Source of the DNA: Nitratifractor salsuginis DSM 16511
GTDB taxonomy: Bacteria > Campylobacterota > Campylobacteria > Campylobacterales > Sulfurovaceae
NCBI RefSeq assembly: GCF_000186245.1
Contig: NC_014935.1
Coordinates: 1,798,001 to 1,862,000, forward strand
Length of the DNA stretch: 64,000 nucleotides
Reading direction: 5' to 3'
In this document: piece by piece, positions 17,980-25,111 of the stretch
Position numbering within the stretch: position 1 is the stretch's first letter
Layout: the number at the start of each line of letters is the position of its first letter
Translations under genes and position numbers: made by a program
The notes under the pieces: generated by a model
What the model was told of the DNA's origin: nothing
Database searches by the model: none
The model's input: the letters and a program-made list of their open reading frames with translations, nothing else

Positions 17980-18492
17980 TTAGCTTTCCAGGTTCTCCAG
18001 AAATTCGAGCAGACCCTCGATGATCCGATCCGGGCTCGGGGGACAGCCGGGGATATGATGGGCTACCGGCAGATGCTCCGAAGCGGGAGCGGTGACGGCG
18101 AAGGTGTGTTCGAAGGGTGCCTGCATCGCCGGGCAATCCCCCAGGGTGATGCACCATTTGGGCTCGGGGATCTGCTCCCAGGCATCCAGGACGTGGGGGA
18201 GCATATTGAAAGTCAGCACGCCGCTGAGCAGCATCAGGTCGGCATGCCGGGGCGACGCGACGAAATGAATCCCCAGACGCTCCAAATCGTAATAGGGATT
18301 GCTCAGGGCATTGCACTCCGCTTCGCAGGCGTTGCAGCTGCCGCTGTCCACCATCCGAATCGCCAGAGAACCGGCGAATTTGCGCTTGACCTCATCCCTG
18401 AGCCGCTTGCGCAGCTCCTTCATCCGCTCGTCAAACTCAGGATGCTCCGTCAAAACCCCGGTTTGGAATCGCTTTTGCCAATATTTCAGCAT
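17980..18492 (-). CDS. hyfI: Hydrogenase-4/complex I small subunit (HyfI/NuoB-like)
   Basis: 170 residues from ATG 18492. The NuoB-type 4Fe-4S ligands are present: SGSCNACEAEC, GDC and IPGCPPSP. In related complexes this subunit holds the N2-type cluster and contacts the large subunit. Last gene of the hyfB-C-E-F-G-I order, separated from hyfG by repeats. The ORF is open upstream but the family begins at MLKYWQKRF. Confidence 0.87.
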   Translation of the reverse strand: MLKYWQKRFQTGVLTEHPEFDERMKELRKRLRDEVKRKFAGSLAIRMVDSGSCNACEAECNALSNPYYDLERLGIHFVASPRHADLMLLSGVLTFNMLPHVLDAWEQIPEPKWCITLGDCPAMQAPFEHTFAVTAPASEHLPVAHHIPGCPPSPDRIIEGLLEFLENLES

Positions 18493-18517
18493 AATGCAGC
18501 CTCCGGCTGGGAGTCGT

Positions 18518-18630
18518 TGGTCGTCAATCGTCGATCGTTGGTTTGCGGGCTTTGCCCGCTCATAATTAATTGCGTTGTGAAACAACGCTTACCAAAATTC
18601 CTCACTCCTAACTCCTCATTCTTCACTCAT
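18518..18630. repeat. hyfG-hyfI gap: heptamer repeats and two hairpins
   Basis: GTCGTTGGTC-type copies (18518-18545), hairpins GCGGGCTTTGCCCGC (near 18546) and GCGTTGTGAAACAACGC (near 18570), then TCCTCAC/TCCTAAC copies (18600-18630). The gap lies inside the presumed hyf operon. Confidence 0.75.
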
Positions 18631-20034
18631 TTATAGGTCATTTCCCGCATAGCTCAGATCGCAGCTCTTGTTGATCAGGGGGAAATCGGCGATGATATTA
18701 CCCGGCATCATCAGGTGCAACGCCTGCCAATTGACGAAGCTGGGATCCCGGTAGAAAAAGCGACCGATCTTCCCGGCCTCGATCTCGATGCTCATATAGA
18801 TCTCTCCCAGGGAACTTTCGACGAAGCTCTCGTAGAAGCCATCCTTCGCCTCACTCTCCAAAAGGGAGAAGTCTTCGCCGGATTCGGCACCCTTCTCCAT
18901 CAACTCCCGCACGAAGCTTTGTATCAACGCCAAAGAGCTCTTGACTTCGGCGATACGGACTTTGAAACGGGCTGCGACATCTCCGCTCGTTTCCGTGGCC
19001 GCTGCGAAGCCCCTCTCCGTGTAAAAGGGATCGTCAGAACGCACATCCAGACTCAAACCGCTGGCACGGGCCATCACCCCCACACAACCGTAACGCTTGG
19101 CATCGTCGGCTTTCAGGATACCCGTGGTATCCATCCGGTCCCAGAGGGAGGGGATATCGACGATCCAATTCTCAAACCATCCGATCGCCTCCTCCATCCG
19201 CTGGGCAAAGCTCGAAATCTCCCCGAGATCCCAAGCCGGAAGCTCCCTGAAAAGCGCCTCGAAACCGAAGCGGCTTCTTGTGAGCCGGGCCATCAAGCGC
19301 CGTGCCTCTTCCGCCCGGGCGGAGCCCCAGGCCAGAGCTGCGCCGAAACCGGCATCGTTGGGGATGAAGCCCAGGTCGGTCCAGTGGTGGATAATCCGCT
19401 CCAGCTCCAGCAGCAGGGCGTGGCGCAGGCGAAGGGCTTCGGGCAGTTCCTGAGCTGTGGATTCTTCCACGATGTGCAGGAAGGCCGACTGGGCGGCGAC
19501 ACTTTCGTTGCCGCTGATCCGGCTGACGATAGGGGCGGCTTCGGCCAGGTTTTTGCCCTCCAGCATCTTTTCGATGCCCCGGTATTTGTAGAAGTGGCGC
19601 ACCTCCTGGTGAAGCATATCTTCCCCCGCCTGGGAAAAATGAAAATGCCCCGGCTCAATGATCCCGGCGTGGATCGGTCCTACCGCCACTTCAAAGACTC
19701 CATCCCCGCCGATCGTTTCATAATGATAGGGGCGGTACTCCGCCGCTTCAAGAACCGTATGAACGTCAAAATCCCTGCGCATCGGGTAAACCCCCTCGGG
19801 CCAACGTTCGTGATGGACCAGAGGCCGGAAGTCGAAAGCCCCCTCGAAACGGATCCCGAAATCGTCGGCCGTCTTGCGCTCGAACCAGATCGCCGCCGGA
19901 AAACGGGGCATGATACTCGCCGCCACCGGCTGAGAGCGGGAAACCTGTTCACGGACCATCCCGTCATCGAAACGGGTCAGCAGTTCGAAGTTGTCGCCGC
20001 GATCGACGGCATAGCGGGCAATCAGACGTTTCAT
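18631..20034 (-). CDS. hyfG: Hydrogenase-related large subunit lacking NiFe ligands (HyfG/Ehr type)
   Basis: 467 residues, a NuoC-like N-terminal part followed by a NuoD/HycE-like part (VGPIHAGIIEPGHF, HQEVRHFYKYRGIEKML). Where NiFe hydrogenases have RICGIC it reads SRISGNESVAAQSAF, and the C-terminal DPCxxC is replaced by NKSCDLSYAGNDL. The active-site metal therefore cannot be bound as in hydrogenases. This matches the energy-converting hydrogenase-related (Ehr) complexes, whose reaction is unknown. The start MKRLIARYAVDRGDNF fits the family. Confidence 0.88.
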   Translation of the reverse strand: MKRLIARYAVDRGDNFELLTRFDDGMVREQVSRSQPVAASIMPRFPAAIWFERKTADDFGIRFEGAFDFRPLVHHERWPEGVYPMRRDFDVHTVLEAAEYRPYHYETIGGDGVFEVAVGPIHAGIIEPGHFHFSQAGEDMLHQEVRHFYKYRGIEKMLEGKNLAEAAPIVSRISGNESVAAQSAFLHIVEESTAQELPEALRLRHALLLELERIIHHWTDLGFIPNDAGFGAALAWGSARAEEARRLMARLTRSRFGFEALFRELPAWDLGEISSFAQRMEEAIGWFENWIVDIPSLWDRMDTTGILKADDAKRYGCVGVMARASGLSLDVRSDDPFYTERGFAAATETSGDVAARFKVRIAEVKSSLALIQSFVRELMEKGAESGEDFSLLESEAKDGFYESFVESSLGEIYMSIEIEAGKIGRFFYRDPSFVNWQALHLMMPGNIIADFPLINKSCDLSYAGNDL

Positions 20035-20050
20035 TGTGCAAAGCCTTTTT

Positions 20051-20132
20051 CAGTCGCAAGTCTCAGGCACGGGCCTTCGGCCCTCACGTCGCAAGTCAAA
20101 TTCTCCATTCTCAATTCTCCATTCTCAATTCC
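20051..20132. repeat. GTCGCAAG hairpin element and heptamers
   Basis: GTCGCAAG flanks a perfect hairpin GGGCCTTCGGCCC (20071-20083), followed by TTCTCCA/TTCTCAA copies to 20132. The hairpin element recurs at 48932, 53125 and 53516. Confidence 0.75.
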
Positions 20133-20139
20133 AAAAGGC

Positions 20140-21555
20140 TCATCCGATTCCCTGGAGGAAGCTCATCGAAGAGGGAAGCAACAGCGCCGCCAGGCCCACC
20201 GCGAAGATCGCCAGGGCCAGTACTTCACTCGTGTAGACCTTTTTGGGGCTCTCCTCCCCCTCGTATTTCATCGACTGATAGATCTGCACAAAGCGGTAAA
20301 AGATCACCGAGAGTAGCACCAGTAGCAGGGCGATGGCCCCCAGCATCGCCAGGAGATGGTGGCTTGTTTTGGCATTGTCGATCATAGCACCGAAGCCGTA
20401 GAGTTCACTGAAGAACATCGGGCTGGGAGGGATCGAAATGATCGCCAGCATAAAGAGCCCCACCAGGAACCAGAAGAGCCGGCCCCGATTGCCGCTGTAG
20501 CCTTTGAGCGCCCCGGCGAAGTGGTAACGCCCGGTCGATTCCAGTACCCCCGTCGAAAGGAAAAGGGCCGGTTTGAGAAAGGCGTGGGCCCCGAAATGAA
20601 GCAGTGCGGCGAAGGTCCCCCCACTCACCCAGAAAAGGGCGATGAGGGCCATATGCTCGACCCCTGAGAGGCTGAAGAGGCGCATGAAATCCTTGGCCCG
20701 GAAAATCAAGAAAGAGACGATGAAGATCGTCAACAGCGTATAGATAAAGACGAAGATGAAGAGGTGGTCATAGTTGACCCGCTCGGCAATCTTCGAAAAA
20801 CGGAAAAAGCCCGCCATCACCCCGCTCTCCAAAATCCCGCTAAACAAAGCCGCCACGGGGTAGAAGGAAGCCCGCTCGATATGGGCCAGCCAGAGGTTCA
20901 TGGGGAAAAAGCCCATCTTGACGAACATCCCCAGAGCCGCCAACGCAAAGCCCATCTCGAAGAGGAAGGGAGAGGGGATCCTGTCGGCGTGGCTCAGGAG
21001 CGCATCGAAGAGCATCGCCTCCTCACCCAGGATCGGCTTGGCCGCCGCGTAGATGAGGATCACCCCAAACAGTACCAGCGAAATGGCGATGGCCCCGACG
21101 ATCATATAGTTCCATGCCTCTTTATGGGCGGCGGGGCTGTGGTTGGTCTTGATCATATAGACCGTGGAGAGGGTCGCCATCTCCAGACCGATCCAGAAGA
21201 TCCCCATATGGTTGGCCAGGATCGAAAGGGTCAAACCGATCCAGAAGAGCCCGAAGAACCGGTAGAAGCGGTAGAGGGCTTTTTGGGTGACCTTCACGTG
21301 TTTATCCAGGGTCAGCAGCGCCAAAGTCACCCCGATGCCGACCACGGATGAGACCAGCAGAATATAAGTGTTGAGATCGTCGGCCACCAAATAGTTGCCC
21401 CAGAGATGATAGGGTTTGGGCAGGCGGAAAAGTTCGATCACCGGCAGCAATACCGCAAAAGAGCTGATCGGCAGCAGTCGGCGCGCCCAGAGATTGTGGG
21501 AAAAGCTGGCGGCGAACATCAGGAAGGGGGGTAAGAGCAGGAAAAAGAGCATCAT
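20140..21555 (-). CDS. hyfF: Membrane antiporter-like subunit HyfF (NuoN/M-like)
   Basis: 471 residues, about 13 membrane helices with the proton-translocating Mrp/NuoL-M-N core: NHMGIFWIGLEMATLSTVYM carries the key glutamate, and lysines lie in MGFALAALGMFVKMGFFPM. It likely pumps ions in the Hyf/Ehr complex. A 151-base gap with a small GC-rich hairpin separates it from hyfE. Confidence 0.88.
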   Translation of the reverse strand: MMLFFLLLPPFLMFAASFSHNLWARRLLPISSFAVLLPVIELFRLPKPYHLWGNYLVADDLNTYILLVSSVVGIGVTLALLTLDKHVKVTQKALYRFYRFFGLFWIGLTLSILANHMGIFWIGLEMATLSTVYMIKTNHSPAAHKEAWNYMIVGAIAISLVLFGVILIYAAAKPILGEEAMLFDALLSHADRIPSPFLFEMGFALAALGMFVKMGFFPMNLWLAHIERASFYPVAALFSGILESGVMAGFFRFSKIAERVNYDHLFIFVFIYTLLTIFIVSFLIFRAKDFMRLFSLSGVEHMALIALFWVSGGTFAALLHFGAHAFLKPALFLSTGVLESTGRYHFAGALKGYSGNRGRLFWFLVGLFMLAIISIPPSPMFFSELYGFGAMIDNAKTSHHLLAMLGAIALLLVLLSVIFYRFVQIYQSMKYEGEESPKKVYTSEVLALAIFAVGLAALLLPSSMSFLQGIG

Positions 21556-21706
21556 AATCCCTCTCCTCTACAAGACAACGGAGCTTTGATTCGATGGTGA
21601 CAAAGGAGCACCCAACCCCGCAGGGGCGCCGCAGGCGTTTGCGACTGCCGGAGCTGTCGGGTCAAAGTGGAGTGATTTTGAAACAGTTGGAACGCTCTAC
21701 AAACAA

Positions 21707-22300
21707 TCATGACTCGGCCTCCTCACGATAGAGCAGCAGGTTGATCACCACAATGGCCATCAACAGATCGAAGAAGATCCCCAGCTCCACCAGCATCGGC
21801 ATCCCGCCCGTGGCGGTGGTCCCCAGCAGGAAGAGGGCATTCTCCATACTCAAAAAGCCCACGATCTTGGGGGCGATGTTGCGGTGCTCGATCATCAGCA
21901 GCAGCGAAAGAAAGAGCGATGAGATACTGACCGCCACATAGTTAGCATTGCCCTGCACCATATGGCTGATGGGTTCGGCCAGATAGAAGGTAAAGACCAG
22001 AATCGCCGGCACCAGCATAATGGCATACTGGGTTTTGATGCTGGGAGGAACCTGACGCACCAACTGAAACTTCTGGCTGAGATACTTCAGAATGTAGGGA
22101 ATCGCCAGGGCTTTGAGCAGGATCGTCAGCGTCCCGCTGATGAGCATCGCCCGGTCGCCAAGCTCGCTCCCCAGGACCAGAGCCAGCAGCCCCAGGGTCA
22201 ACGAGTTGAGGGAATACCAAAACAGCAGCCGATAGAGCCGCGTGGTAAAGAGCGCCGTAATCAGTGTGGCCAAAAAAAGACCGATCAGAAAATCCACCAT
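21707..22300 (-). CDS. hyfE: Hydrogenase-4 component E (HyfE, NuoK-like)
   Basis: 197 residues, about six membrane helices. Includes RLLFWYSLNSLTLGLLALVL and the C-terminal ENALFLLGTTATGGMPMLVE, the NuoK-like part with a buried glutamate. Ends one base before the hyfC stop region, so it is translationally linked. Close to the usual length of about 216. Confidence 0.85.
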   Translation of the reverse strand: MVDFLIGLFLATLITALFTTRLYRLLFWYSLNSLTLGLLALVLGSELGDRAMLISGTLTILLKALAIPYILKYLSQKFQLVRQVPPSIKTQYAIMLVPAILVFTFYLAEPISHMVQGNANYVAVSISSLFLSLLLMIEHRNIAPKIVGFLSMENALFLLGTTATGGMPMLVELGIFFDLLMAIVVINLLLYREEAES

Positions 22301-22301
22301 T

Positions 22302-23222
22302 TCAAGCCCCCAGTACGTAAAAGGTAATCAGCGACAAAAAGGCAAACACAATGGCGATCCCCAGCAGATCGGGCACCTTGAAAAGCCGCAGTTTGGCCGT
22401 ATTGACTTCGATCAGCGCCACCGCCAAAGCCACGGCGAAGAGCTTGCCCACGAAGATCAGCAGGGCCAGAGGCCAGGCAGCCTCCATCCCGAAGGGCAAA
22501 AAGAGGGTTGCAAAAAGCGACGCGAAGATGACGAATTTCACCGAAGCCGCCGTCTCGATGATCGCCAGATAGATCCCGGTAATGTCCAGGATCATCGCTT
22601 CATGCACCATCGTCAACTCCAGGTGAGTTTCGGGATTGTCCACCGGGATGCGCCCGTTCTCGGCGATGAGCAGGATAAAGAAACTGATCGCTGCAAAGAG
22701 GTAGCTGGCCATATGCTCCCGGGGGAAATGCTGCGCCAGGTTCACCCCCGCCTGCCCCACTCCTAGGTCACCGGCCATCATCGAGACACTGAAGATGGTC
22801 AAAACCATCGCCGGCTCCACGAGAGCGGAGATGAAGGCTTCGCGGCTCGACCCCATCCCTCCGAAACTGCTGGCACTGTCCAGGCCCAGCAACATCAGGA
22901 AGAAGGTCGAAAGAGCCAGCAGCCCCGTGATGGTGAAGGCATCGACGAAACTGACGTAATAGGCCCCTTTCACCGCCGGGGGGAGATAAAAGAGGACGAT
23001 CAGCAGCGGAGCGAGGACCAAAAAGGGCGCCACCCGGGTCATCACACTGGCTTCCCGGCTGAGCACCGTCTCTTTGCCAAGCAGTTTGGAAAAGTCCCGA
23101 TAACCCTGCAGCAGCGAAACGGGCCGTTTGTAGAGCAGCCACATCTTGACCGCCTTGATAAAACTGAGCAGGATCGGGGCCAAAGCCAGTAAGAGCACTA
23201 TTGTCACGAAATAGAGGATCAT
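22302..23222 (-). CDS. hyfC: Membrane subunit HyfC (NuoH-like)
   Basis: 306 residues, eight helices. The signature ENGRIPVDNPETHLELTMVH (quinone- or coupling-site loop of NuoH/HycD) is intact, as is KLLGKETVLSREASVMTRVAP. It connects the peripheral arm to the ion-pumping subunits. Overlaps hyfB by four bases. Confidence 0.92.
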   Translation of the reverse strand: MILYFVTIVLLLALAPILLSFIKAVKMWLLYKRPVSLLQGYRDFSKLLGKETVLSREASVMTRVAPFLVLAPLLIVLFYLPPAVKGAYYVSFVDAFTITGLLALSTFFLMLLGLDSASSFGGMGSSREAFISALVEPAMVLTIFSVSMMAGDLGVGQAGVNLAQHFPREHMASYLFAAISFFILLIAENGRIPVDNPETHLELTMVHEAMILDITGIYLAIIETAASVKFVIFASLFATLFLPFGMEAAWPLALLIFVGKLFAVALAVALIEVNTAKLRLFKVPDLLGIAIVFAFLSLITFYVLGA

Positions 23223-25111
23223 CGTTTCTCTCCGATAATGAGCACTTTGATCGAAATCACCATCACCACCGACTCCAGGGCGAAGGTAGCCCAGCTGAAT
23301 TCGTGGGCGAAGATCCGGTAGCTGAAGAGCACCAGCAGCATCAGGTTGAAGATCATCGCCGCGTAACGGGTCTGCTCGAAGTGGGCCAGTCGGTAGATCC
23401 AGTAGCTGATCCGGTTCGCCAGCTTCGCCGTGCCGTCATAGAGAGAGCGCTCGAAAAGGGGTTTGACGTGCACTTCGTAGCTGGAGGCGTCGAATTTGCT
23501 TTCGTGCCCGGCCAGCGTCTCCTTGTGCAGGTGTTCCTCGGGCCGGTAGAGCCAGGTGAAGAAGCGGCGGATTGGTCCGGCGAAGCCGGTGGCCGAATAT
23601 TGGGTCCGCGCCCCGGTGCGGTAACCGCAGGCCCAGGTACGGTGGAGCCGCTCTTTGACCCCCAGCATCCGATAAGCCCAGGCCAGAAGCAGCGTCACCC
23701 CCAGCAGGGAGATCAGAAGAAGGAGCGGAGAAACCACCCCGCCGTTGACCGCCACGGAGTGCATATGCCAAACGCCAAAGGGGAAGATGGCATCATAAGC
23801 CCCCACTTTTCCCTCGGCCACCAGCGCCCGGTCAAAGAGATGAATAAAAGCCGGAGCGAAGAGCATCAGGGCGATCACCACCCCCGCCATCGCCAGCATC
23901 CCAAAACGCATCAGGCCGTTAACCTCTTTGGCGTGTCGGGCGTTGGCACTGCGATGCAAACCCAAAAAGGTAATGCCGTAGGCTTTGACGAAGCAGGCGA
24001 TGGCCAAGCCTCCGGTGAGCGCCAGGGCGAAAATGGCAAAGGGGATCGCCAGCTTGAGAGACATATTGGTGATGGTGTTGGAGCTGAGCAGCGATTGAAA
24101 AATCATCCATTCACTCAAAAAGCCGTTGGTCGGCGGCAGGGCCGAAATGGAGACCGAAGCCAACAAAAAGGTCAGGGCCGTGATCGGCATACTCTTGATG
24201 AGCCCGCCATAGGCTTCGATGTTTTTGGTATGGGTTTCGTGGAGCACACTCCCCGCCCCCATAAAGAGCAGAGATTTGAAACTCATATGGTTGAAGGTAT
24301 GGAAAAGGGCCGCGATGAAGGCGAAGGTGCTCAGAATCCCCAGCTGCAGCGCGTCGAAGATCATCCCCATCCCGAAGCCGATCAGAATAATGCCGATATT
24401 CTCGATGGAATGATTGGCCAGCAGGGCTTTGATATCGTGCTCGCTCAGGGCGTAGAGCACCCCCACCAGGGAAGAGAGGGCCCCGATCACCAGGATCAGG
24501 ATCCCCCACTCCAGCGGCCAGGGGTAGAGCACATCGAGCATAAAGCGGAACATCCCGTAGATCGCCACTTTGAGCATCACCCCGCTCATAAGCGCGGAGA
24601 CGGGACTGGGGGCTGCCGGGTGGGCATAGGGGAGCCAGACATGCAGGGGCACTGCCCCGGCCTTGGAGAGAAAGCCCAGGATCAGGAAGAAGAAGAGCAG
24701 CGTCGGATAGGCGAAGTGGGCCGCAACCCCCTGCATCTGGGCAAAGTCCAGCTCCAGATTCCCGTCGGTGACCAGGAGGAAGAAGAGCAGCAGAAAGACG
24801 AAGCCGAAGTGGGTCATAAAGAAATAAAAACGCGCCGCAGGGATCGTTCCCTTCTCTTCGGGCTCCGTCAGGATCAACTGCCAGCTCGTCAGGCTCATCA
24901 ATTCCCAAAAGAGCAGAAAGGTCAGAGCGTTGGCCGCCGTCACCACCCCCAGCATCGAGAGGATGAAACCGAAATAGTGGATCAGGTAGTGGGCTTTGCG
25001 CTCGATATGGGGCAGGTATCCCTGGGAGTAGAAGAGATTGGGCAGGGCTCCGAGGAGGATCAAAAAGACAAAGAGCAGCGACAGGGCATCAAGATGAAAT
25101 GCAAAAGGCAT
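23219..25111 (-). CDS. hyfB: Membrane antiporter-like subunit HyfB (NuoL-like)
   Basis: 630 residues, about 16 membrane helices. Conserved FLLFWELMSLTSWQLI (key Glu), KAGAVPLHVWLPYAHPAAPSPVSALMSG and LANHSIENIGIILIG identify the NuoL/HyfB family. First gene of the six-gene hyf/Ehr-like operon. No hyfA or hyfH ferredoxin gene and no hydrogenase maturation genes are present, which supports a non-hydrogenase complex. Confidence 0.92.
   Translation of the reverse strand: MPFAFHLDALSLLFVFLILLGALPNLFYSQGYLPHIERKAHYLIHYFGFILSMLGVVTAANALTFLLFWELMSLTSWQLILTEPEEKGTIPAARFYFFMTHFGFVFLLLFFLLVTDGNLELDFAQMQGVAAHFAYPTLLFFFLILGFLSKAGAVPLHVWLPYAHPAAPSPVSALMSGVMLKVAIYGMFRFMLDVLYPWPLEWGILILVIGALSSLVGVLYALSEHDIKALLANHSIENIGIILIGFGMGMIFDALQLGILSTFAFIAALFHTFNHMSFKSLLFMGAGSVLHETHTKNIEAYGGLIKSMPITALTFLLASVSISALPPTNGFLSEWMIFQSLLSSNTITNMSLKLAIPFAIFALALTGGLAIACFVKAYGITFLGLHRSANARHAKEVNGLMRFGMLAMAGVVIALMLFAPAFIHLFDRALVAEGKVGAYDAIFPFGVWHMHSVAVNGGVVSPLLLLISLLGVTLLLAWAYRMLGVKERLHRTWACGYRTGARTQYSATGFAGPIRRFFTWLYRPEEHLHKETLAGHESKFDASSYEVHVKPLFERSLYDGTAKLANRISYWIYRLAHFEQTRYAAMIFNLMLLVLFSYRIFAHEFSWATFALESVVMVISIKVLIIGEKR

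Follow-up and report, generated by a model that had tools for sequence, protein, structure and literature searches.

The hyf-like operon of Nitratifractor salsuginis

Nitratifractor salsuginis is a deep-sea vent autotroph that oxidizes H2 and respires nitrate or O2 (PMC3156401). Here, we describe a hydrogenase-4-like operon in a 64,000-nt stretch (the window; NC_014935.1, positions 1,798,001 to 1,862,000) of the single-contig, 2,101,285-bp genome of its type strain, DSM 16511. The operon almost certainly encodes an energy-converting hydrogenase-related (Ehr) complex of a Campylobacterota type. It is read on the minus strand from position 25111 to 17980 and comprises six open reading frames (ORFs) without stops, whose products are homologues of HyfB, HyfC, HyfE, HyfF, HyfG (large subunit, here EhrL) and HyfI (small subunit, EhrS).

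23219..25111, minus strand: hyfB-like gene (EhrA), antiporter-like ion-channel subunit, 630 amino acids; NCBIfam HyfB, E 1e-170
22302..23222, minus strand: hyfC-like gene, NuoH-like membrane anchor, 306 amino acids; PF00146, E 4e-31
21707..22300, minus strand: hyfE-like gene, membrane subunit, 197 amino acids; NCBIfam hydrogenase-4 membrane subunit, E 2e-17, under the curated cut-off
20140..21555, minus strand: hyfF-like gene, second antiporter subunit, 471 amino acids; NCBIfam HyfF, E 5e-50
18631..20034, minus strand: hyfG-like gene (EhrL), large subunit, 467 amino acids, fused 30 kDa and 49 kDa domains; PF00346 and PF00329
17980..18492, minus strand: hyfI-like gene (EhrS), small subunit, 170 amino acids, one predicted [4Fe-4S] cluster, without a ferredoxin domain; PF01058

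Pfam and NCBIfam place all six proteins in complex I and hydrogenase-4 families, with scores under the curated NCBIfam cut-offs, as expected because the family is divergent. Comparison with relatives led us to start hyfI at ATG 18492 (170 amino acids) rather than at TTG 18585; residue numbers in EhrS (C84, C87, E90, C91) count from the 201-residue ORF starting at 18585.

The original prediction, made from the sequence, held that all six hyf genes are present and intact. All six ORFs are indeed intact, but HyfB lacks ∼70 N-terminal residues, that is, transmembrane helices (TM) 1 and 2, relative to Escherichia coli HyfB. Its NCBIfam match begins at profile position 73, and the loss is common to all Campylobacterota relatives. 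It had also noted the lack of ferredoxin (hyfH) and maturation genes, and this is true of the operon: we detected in it no ferredoxin subunit, no maturation gene, and neither HyfA, HyfD, HyfH nor HyfJ. Since no operon protein carries a CxxCxxCxxxC motif, the HyfH/HycF-type subunit that marks Hyf and Hyc is missing. Elsewhere, the genome encodes hypD, true NiFe hydrogenases and NuoD, and no further group 4 large subunit besides EhrL and NuoD.

The large subunit lacks NiFe ligands

As a control for the large subunit, we used L057, a Campylobacterota Hyf with RVCGIC, DPCYSC and a 35-residue tail. Where this protein has its four NiFe cysteines, EhrL has S174, E177, S461 and G464, leaving no cysteine at any of the CxxC and DPCxxC positions that characterize Hyf/Hyc.

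19501..19521, minus strand: former first NiFe cysteine pair, RISGNES, residues 172-178, cysteines replaced by S174 and E177
18634..18669, minus strand: former second NiFe pair and C-terminus, KSCDLSYAGNDL, residues 456-467, cysteines replaced by S461 and G464
19636..19683, minus strand: β1-β2 loop, VGPIHAGIIEPGHFHF, residues 118-133; E127 aligns with MbhL E21

The C-terminus of EhrL reads NKSCDLSYAGNDL, with the motif DLSYAGNDL instead of DPCxxC, and no residue follows this second motif, so that there is no cleavable tail, compared with the 35 residues of L057. The absence of both cysteine pairs, on which the original prediction turned, is thus borne out by the alignment and likewise by the relatives: S174 is found in 29/29 Campylobacterota sequences, position 177 is Glu in 27 and Asp in 2, and S461 and G464 do not vary among the 28 sequences that reach the C-terminus. 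With 29 sequences in agreement, neither chance nor an assembly error accounts for the motifs; no frameshift or misassembly was found, and conservation in relatives rules out a pseudogene or decay. As its residues read, EhrL cannot form a NiFe site.

What surrounds the former site is strongly conserved. N455, K456, S457, Y462 and D466 are invariant across all Ehr sequences that reach the C-terminus, and H122, E127 and H130 are kept in 97/97 Ehr sequences. The counterpart of E127, MbhL E21, is described as key to proton reduction in the hydrogenase MBH (PMC7684303). The quinone ligands His38 and Tyr87 of NuoD align with Ile126 and Gly175. An AlphaFold2 model of EhrL (pLDDT 90, pTM 0.91) has as its top solved match HycE of the E. 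coli formate hydrogenlyase (7z0s_E; Z 41.9 over 460 residues), with complex I ranking lower.

Placement among group 4 relatives

A profile scan of one-genome-per-species contigs yielded at least 582 relatives. A maximum-likelihood tree unites the Campylobacterota proteins in a single clade (support 100), nested in an Ehr clade (78 rows, 100) whose sister group is Hyc/Hyf (99). A smaller, more careful tree agrees, and forcing the Campylobacterota Ehr together with Hyc/Hyf is rejected (approximately unbiased [AU] test, p=0.0005), which disposes of a grouping with true hydrogenases. Together with the NiFe-cysteine-less large subunit and the presence of NuoB-, NuoH- and antiporter-type subunits in one operon, this placement upholds the Ehr identity claimed in the original prediction.

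A Bacillota/Mycoplasmatota hyfG clade (L077, L080, L092, L097, L099, L119, L122, L127) keeps all four NiFe cysteines (CG[AV]C ... ELCY[AS]C) while showing the Ehr motifs HAGIIEPGHF and NKSF and no C-terminal tail. Because it branches beside the cysteine-less Ehr (support 97 and 99/93), the NiFe cysteines were probably lost within the Ehr lineage; the cysteine-keeping proteins may still be hydrogenases and may show what the Ehr ancestor looked like. A group of large subunits from related genomes with the motif CQGDLDR (L141, L146, L148, L150) was considered as further cysteine-less hydrogenases and rejected. We regard these as a second complex I, since L141, L148 and L150 adjoin NuoA-, NuoB- and NuoH-like genes.

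The small subunit and the membrane arm

As predicted, the small subunit keeps its cluster ligands, namely C84, C87, C151 and C181, and all four are invariant in 28/28 Campylobacterota sequences.

18313..18336, minus strand: EhrS C84-N-A-C87-E-A-E90-C91, with two cluster ligands, a conserved Glu and a clade-specific extra Cys

The extra residue, C91, is present in 28/28 Campylobacterota sequences versus 0/61 in other Ehr. Four invariant cysteines and an added fifth argue that the cluster is in use in this clade. EhrS aligns without gaps to MbhJ (6cfw_J) over the CxxC cluster loop, and four-Cys coordination is therefore expected. Where the N2 site of NuoB has tandem cysteines, EhrS has CNAC.

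In the membrane arm, HyfB and HyfF align with antiporter-like subunits and retain their TM5 Glu, TM7 Lys, TM11 His/Lys and TM12 Glu; HyfB also retains the TM8 Lys. HyfC retains the acidic TM5-6 coupling loop ENGRIPVDNPETHLELTMVHEAM, as aligned with HyfC/NuoH.

Distribution and inverted constraint

Of the 200 Campylobacteria genomes sampled, 17 have an EhrL orthologue and the same 17 a HyfB orthologue; they are spread over eight family codes. The B-C-E-F-G-I gene order is conserved, with a tandem HyfB at some loci and HyfI apart from HyfG at one. The complex is under long-term selection in Campylobacterota. Its pattern of constraint, however, is the inverse of that in true Hyf: mean pairwise identities among Campylobacterota Ehr are 69.3% for C, 68.6% for B, 67.1% for I, 62.6% for F, 61.3% for E and 59.6% for G, compared with 81.0% for G, 71.5% for I, 69.1% for F, 67.2% for E, 60.6% for C and 55.1% for B among Campylobacterota true Hyf. 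That is, the large subunit is the least conserved subunit in Ehr and the most conserved in Hyf, a result that lies in the rank order and not in absolute identities, the two genome sets being unmatched in divergence. Within EhrL, the loop 112-160 (83%) and the C-terminus (82%) stay conserved. The inversion therefore points to ion translocation, not H2 chemistry, as the conserved job.

The original prediction does not mention that HyfB has lost TM1-2, that Glu177 and Cys91 are specific to the clade, that constraint is inverted or that ferredoxin-free Ehr operons are common.

Around 30 Campylobacterota loci, we found no widely shared neighbour beyond the six genes, synteny being genus-level only. 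Neighbours were thus rejected as a clue to a partner; unrelated EAL/GGDEF proteins, a thioesterase, FolD, an ABC transporter and PlsX lie around the loci. Several individual operons deserve mention. In Sulfurimonas-type operons, hyfB is duplicated in tandem upstream of hyfC (L039:1058-4840, L040:12700-16635, L061). At L043:8149-15568 in genome G060, ∼5.5 kb with seven same-strand ORFs separates hyfG from hyfI; this genome additionally encodes a true Hyf with all cysteines. At L053:7183-14370, the Campylobacterota genome G194 carries a second Ehr-type operon, a distant one, in which the small subunit has a fused ferredoxin domain and the large subunit a single remaining Cys at the first motif (LCGDS ... 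KSFNLSYCGFDL).

Ehr complexes without small-subunit cluster ligands

Of the small subunits from other Ehr loci, 61 were readable; three or four [4Fe-4S] ligands are missing in 13 of these (L074, L078, L086, L094, L084, L088, L093, L095, L114, L111, L120, L130, L131), and nine retain none. At the ligand positions, methanogen, Altiarchaeales and Dehalococcoidales metagenome-assembled genomes (MAGs) show Asp-x-x-Thr/Ala, Asp and Asn; Moranbacteria and Uhrbacteria show Thr/Ser-x-x-Glu, Gly and Asn/Asp; and other candidate phyla and one Thermoleophilia MAG show Asp/Thr-x-x-Cys, Asp and Asp. These patterns repeat across independent assemblies, and a single clade of ligand-poor EhrS is rejected (AU p 2e-52), implying more than one origin. 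The ligand-poor EhrS is the only small subunit of this type that we found in the seven bacterial MAGs G205-G211 (the Thermoleophilia one and six from candidate phyla), whereas the MAGs of archaea and Dehalococcoidales carry further ones; all of these assemblies are incomplete. The cluster-free complexes retain the HyfB pumping residues and the EhrL invariants, with the HyfF TM12 Glu changed to Lys in some.

At four loci, the cluster-free operon starts 71 to 258 bp after atpG-atpD-atpC on the same strand (L074:1001-4642, L078:21-4336, L086:1394-4659, L111:623-4606). ATP synthase genes also lie near the Ehr genes of L094, L096 and L131, yet further off or on the opposite strand. We found no published report of Ehr lacking small-subunit cluster ligands, in a literature survey of partial coverage. 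Such relatives without redox cofactors provide a sharp test of whether Ehr machines need electrons.

Candidate functions

We propose that the N. salsuginis complex couples electron transfer via one [4Fe-4S] cluster to ion pumping, a mechanistic chain that, taken whole, has about an even chance of being correct. In this proposal, EhrL and EhrS would form a two-protein cytoplasmic arm with a single proximal cluster, and HyfB, HyfF, HyfC and HyfE the ion-translocating membrane arm. A soluble cytoplasmic redox protein, perhaps of ferredoxin type and encoded elsewhere, would trade electrons with the EhrS cluster, while the former NiFe pocket, lined by S174, E177, S461, E127, H122 and perhaps K456, may hold a small acceptor or donor. 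A change in the protonation and redox state of this pocket partner would be passed on, via the β1-β2 loop and the TM5-6 loop of HyfC, to HyfB and HyfF, where H+ or Na+ would move. The machine might run either way, building a gradient or spending one to reduce ferredoxin for the reductive tricarboxylic acid cycle. Several points weigh against this chain. Donor and acceptor are guesses, because the operon is not accompanied by any partner gene. Structure was modelled for EhrL alone, with low confidence in loop 120-125. In addition, since Ehr complexes without cluster ligands exist, electron transfer is not needed in every Ehr.

An alternative is an ion device without redox chemistry. It would be a Mrp-like exchanger of cations and protons or a ligand-gated ion transporter, with a structural or regulatory role for the cytoplasmic arm. 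The 13 ligand-poor small subunits, of more than one origin, keep the operon and most membrane-arm residues; in the four candidate-phyla genomes, the cluster-free operon directly follows atpG-atpD-atpC; and, within the Campylobacterota complex, conservation is highest in the membrane arm. Against such a device speak the four EhrS cysteines, invariant and joined by a fifth in the Campylobacterota clade, and we consider it unlikely here. Similarly tentative is the broader idea that ion translocation is the conserved job of the whole Ehr family and redox catalysis dispensable, in which case the Campylobacterota cluster might gate or regulate transport rather than feed a catalytic site.

Somewhat less likely again is a ferredoxin:quinone oxidoreductase that would work as a pared-down complex I and bind quinone in the EhrL cavity. 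Homology of fold and subunits to NuoCD/B/H/L/M would suit it, as would a host respiring nitrate or O2 with H2 (PMC3156401), but the NuoD ligands His38 and Tyr87 have become Ile126 and Gly175, the NuoB tandem cysteines have become CxxC, and a NuoI-type subunit is missing. Methanogens and candidate phyla carry Ehr too, as do Riflemargulisbacteria, for which no full pathways of quinone synthesis were identified (PMC6349859). A reductase of polysulfide or S0 in the manner of Pyrococcus MBS, whose proximal cluster would offer an open iron site, appears improbable. MBS belongs to this superfamily as well and lacks NiFe (PMC7684303), and the Ehr family is found in sulfur-rich vents; however, EhrS is gapless with MbhJ, E127 is invariant and none of the four NiFe cysteines is kept, and N. 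salsuginis is reported with S0 as a sulfur source and NO3 and O2 as main acceptors (PMC3156401). Residue tests for a complex-I-type quinone site and for an MBS-type open cluster were both negative.

A published Hyc in Sulfurimonas autotrophica

A published study reports a Group IV hydrogenase, Hyc, in S. autotrophica, finds that it clusters with Hycs from vent isolates and proposes that it confers acid resistance by evolving H2 (PMC4584964). In genome G128, which we take to be S. autotrophica, the only group-4-like large subunit besides NuoD is an Ehr orthologue without NiFe ligands. Read from this genome, the published Hyc is an Ehr complex that was misread. That the homologous N. salsuginis complex is a genuine H2-evolving Hyc for acid resistance, as the annotation and clustering in that study would have it, is hardly credible, given that the NiFe ligands are absent in N. 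salsuginis (G000) and in G128 and that neither has another group 4 large subunit besides NuoD. The view of the published vent Hyc as an H2-evolving acid-resistance enzyme is corrected accordingly. For the same reason, both N. salsuginis DSM 16511 and S. autotrophica allow Ehr function to be tested without a competing group 4 hydrogenase.

Flanking genes and spacers

According to Pfam, genes for a TauE/SafE transporter and a DUF1858 protein border the operon at one end, and a gene for a DUF520 protein borders it at the other. Its spacers exceed those of relatives in length. The hyfF-hyfG spacer contains, at 20099..20131 (minus strand), a dispersed heptamer-phased repeat, AATTGAGAATGGAG, with 79 genome copies at ≤2 mismatches versus 0 for a reversed control pattern; it has no part in the mechanism.

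Comparison with known systems

Complex I (NuoB/CD/H/L/M) shares architecture and pumping residues with the N. salsuginis complex, but His38, Tyr87 and the NuoB tandem cysteines are not conserved here, and the operon is without NuoE/F/G/I/A/J/K. MBS of Pyrococcus furiosus is, like the N. salsuginis complex, NiFe-less, group-4-derived and ion-pumping. It has a ferredoxin-type subunit, MbsN, and a proximal-cluster loop three residues shorter than that of MBH, and its large subunit retains two of the four MbhL cysteines and lacks the E21 equivalent (PMC7684303). In contrast, the N. salsuginis complex keeps none of the NiFe cysteines, keeps E127 and has a loop that is not shortened, a comparison made from the published description and the MbhJ alignment. 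Because the quinone ligands are absent and the EhrS loop is unlike that of MBS, a mechanism cannot simply be carried over from complex I or from MBS.

Hyf/Hyc (group 4a) has the same large-subunit fold and domain layout and homologues of HyfB/C/E/F/I, yet differs in the NiFe ligands and in HyfA, HyfD, HyfH and HyfJ, all missing from the N. salsuginis operon, and forms a separate clade. The closest likeness is to Ehr elsewhere (Geobacter sulfurreducens GSU0739-45, Nitrospira, Nitrososphaeria, candidate phyla), which has the same six-subunit B-C-E-F-G-I set without NiFe cysteines, and shares the motifs HAGIIEPGHF and NKSxxxSYxGxD and the missing C-terminal tail. The Campylobacterota clade differs from these by a long stem branch, E177, the extra C91, an EhrL ∼60 amino acids shorter, a HyfB without TM1-2 and an EhrS without a ferredoxin domain. 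Ehr is a widespread family that stands, evolutionarily, between hydrogenases and complex I.

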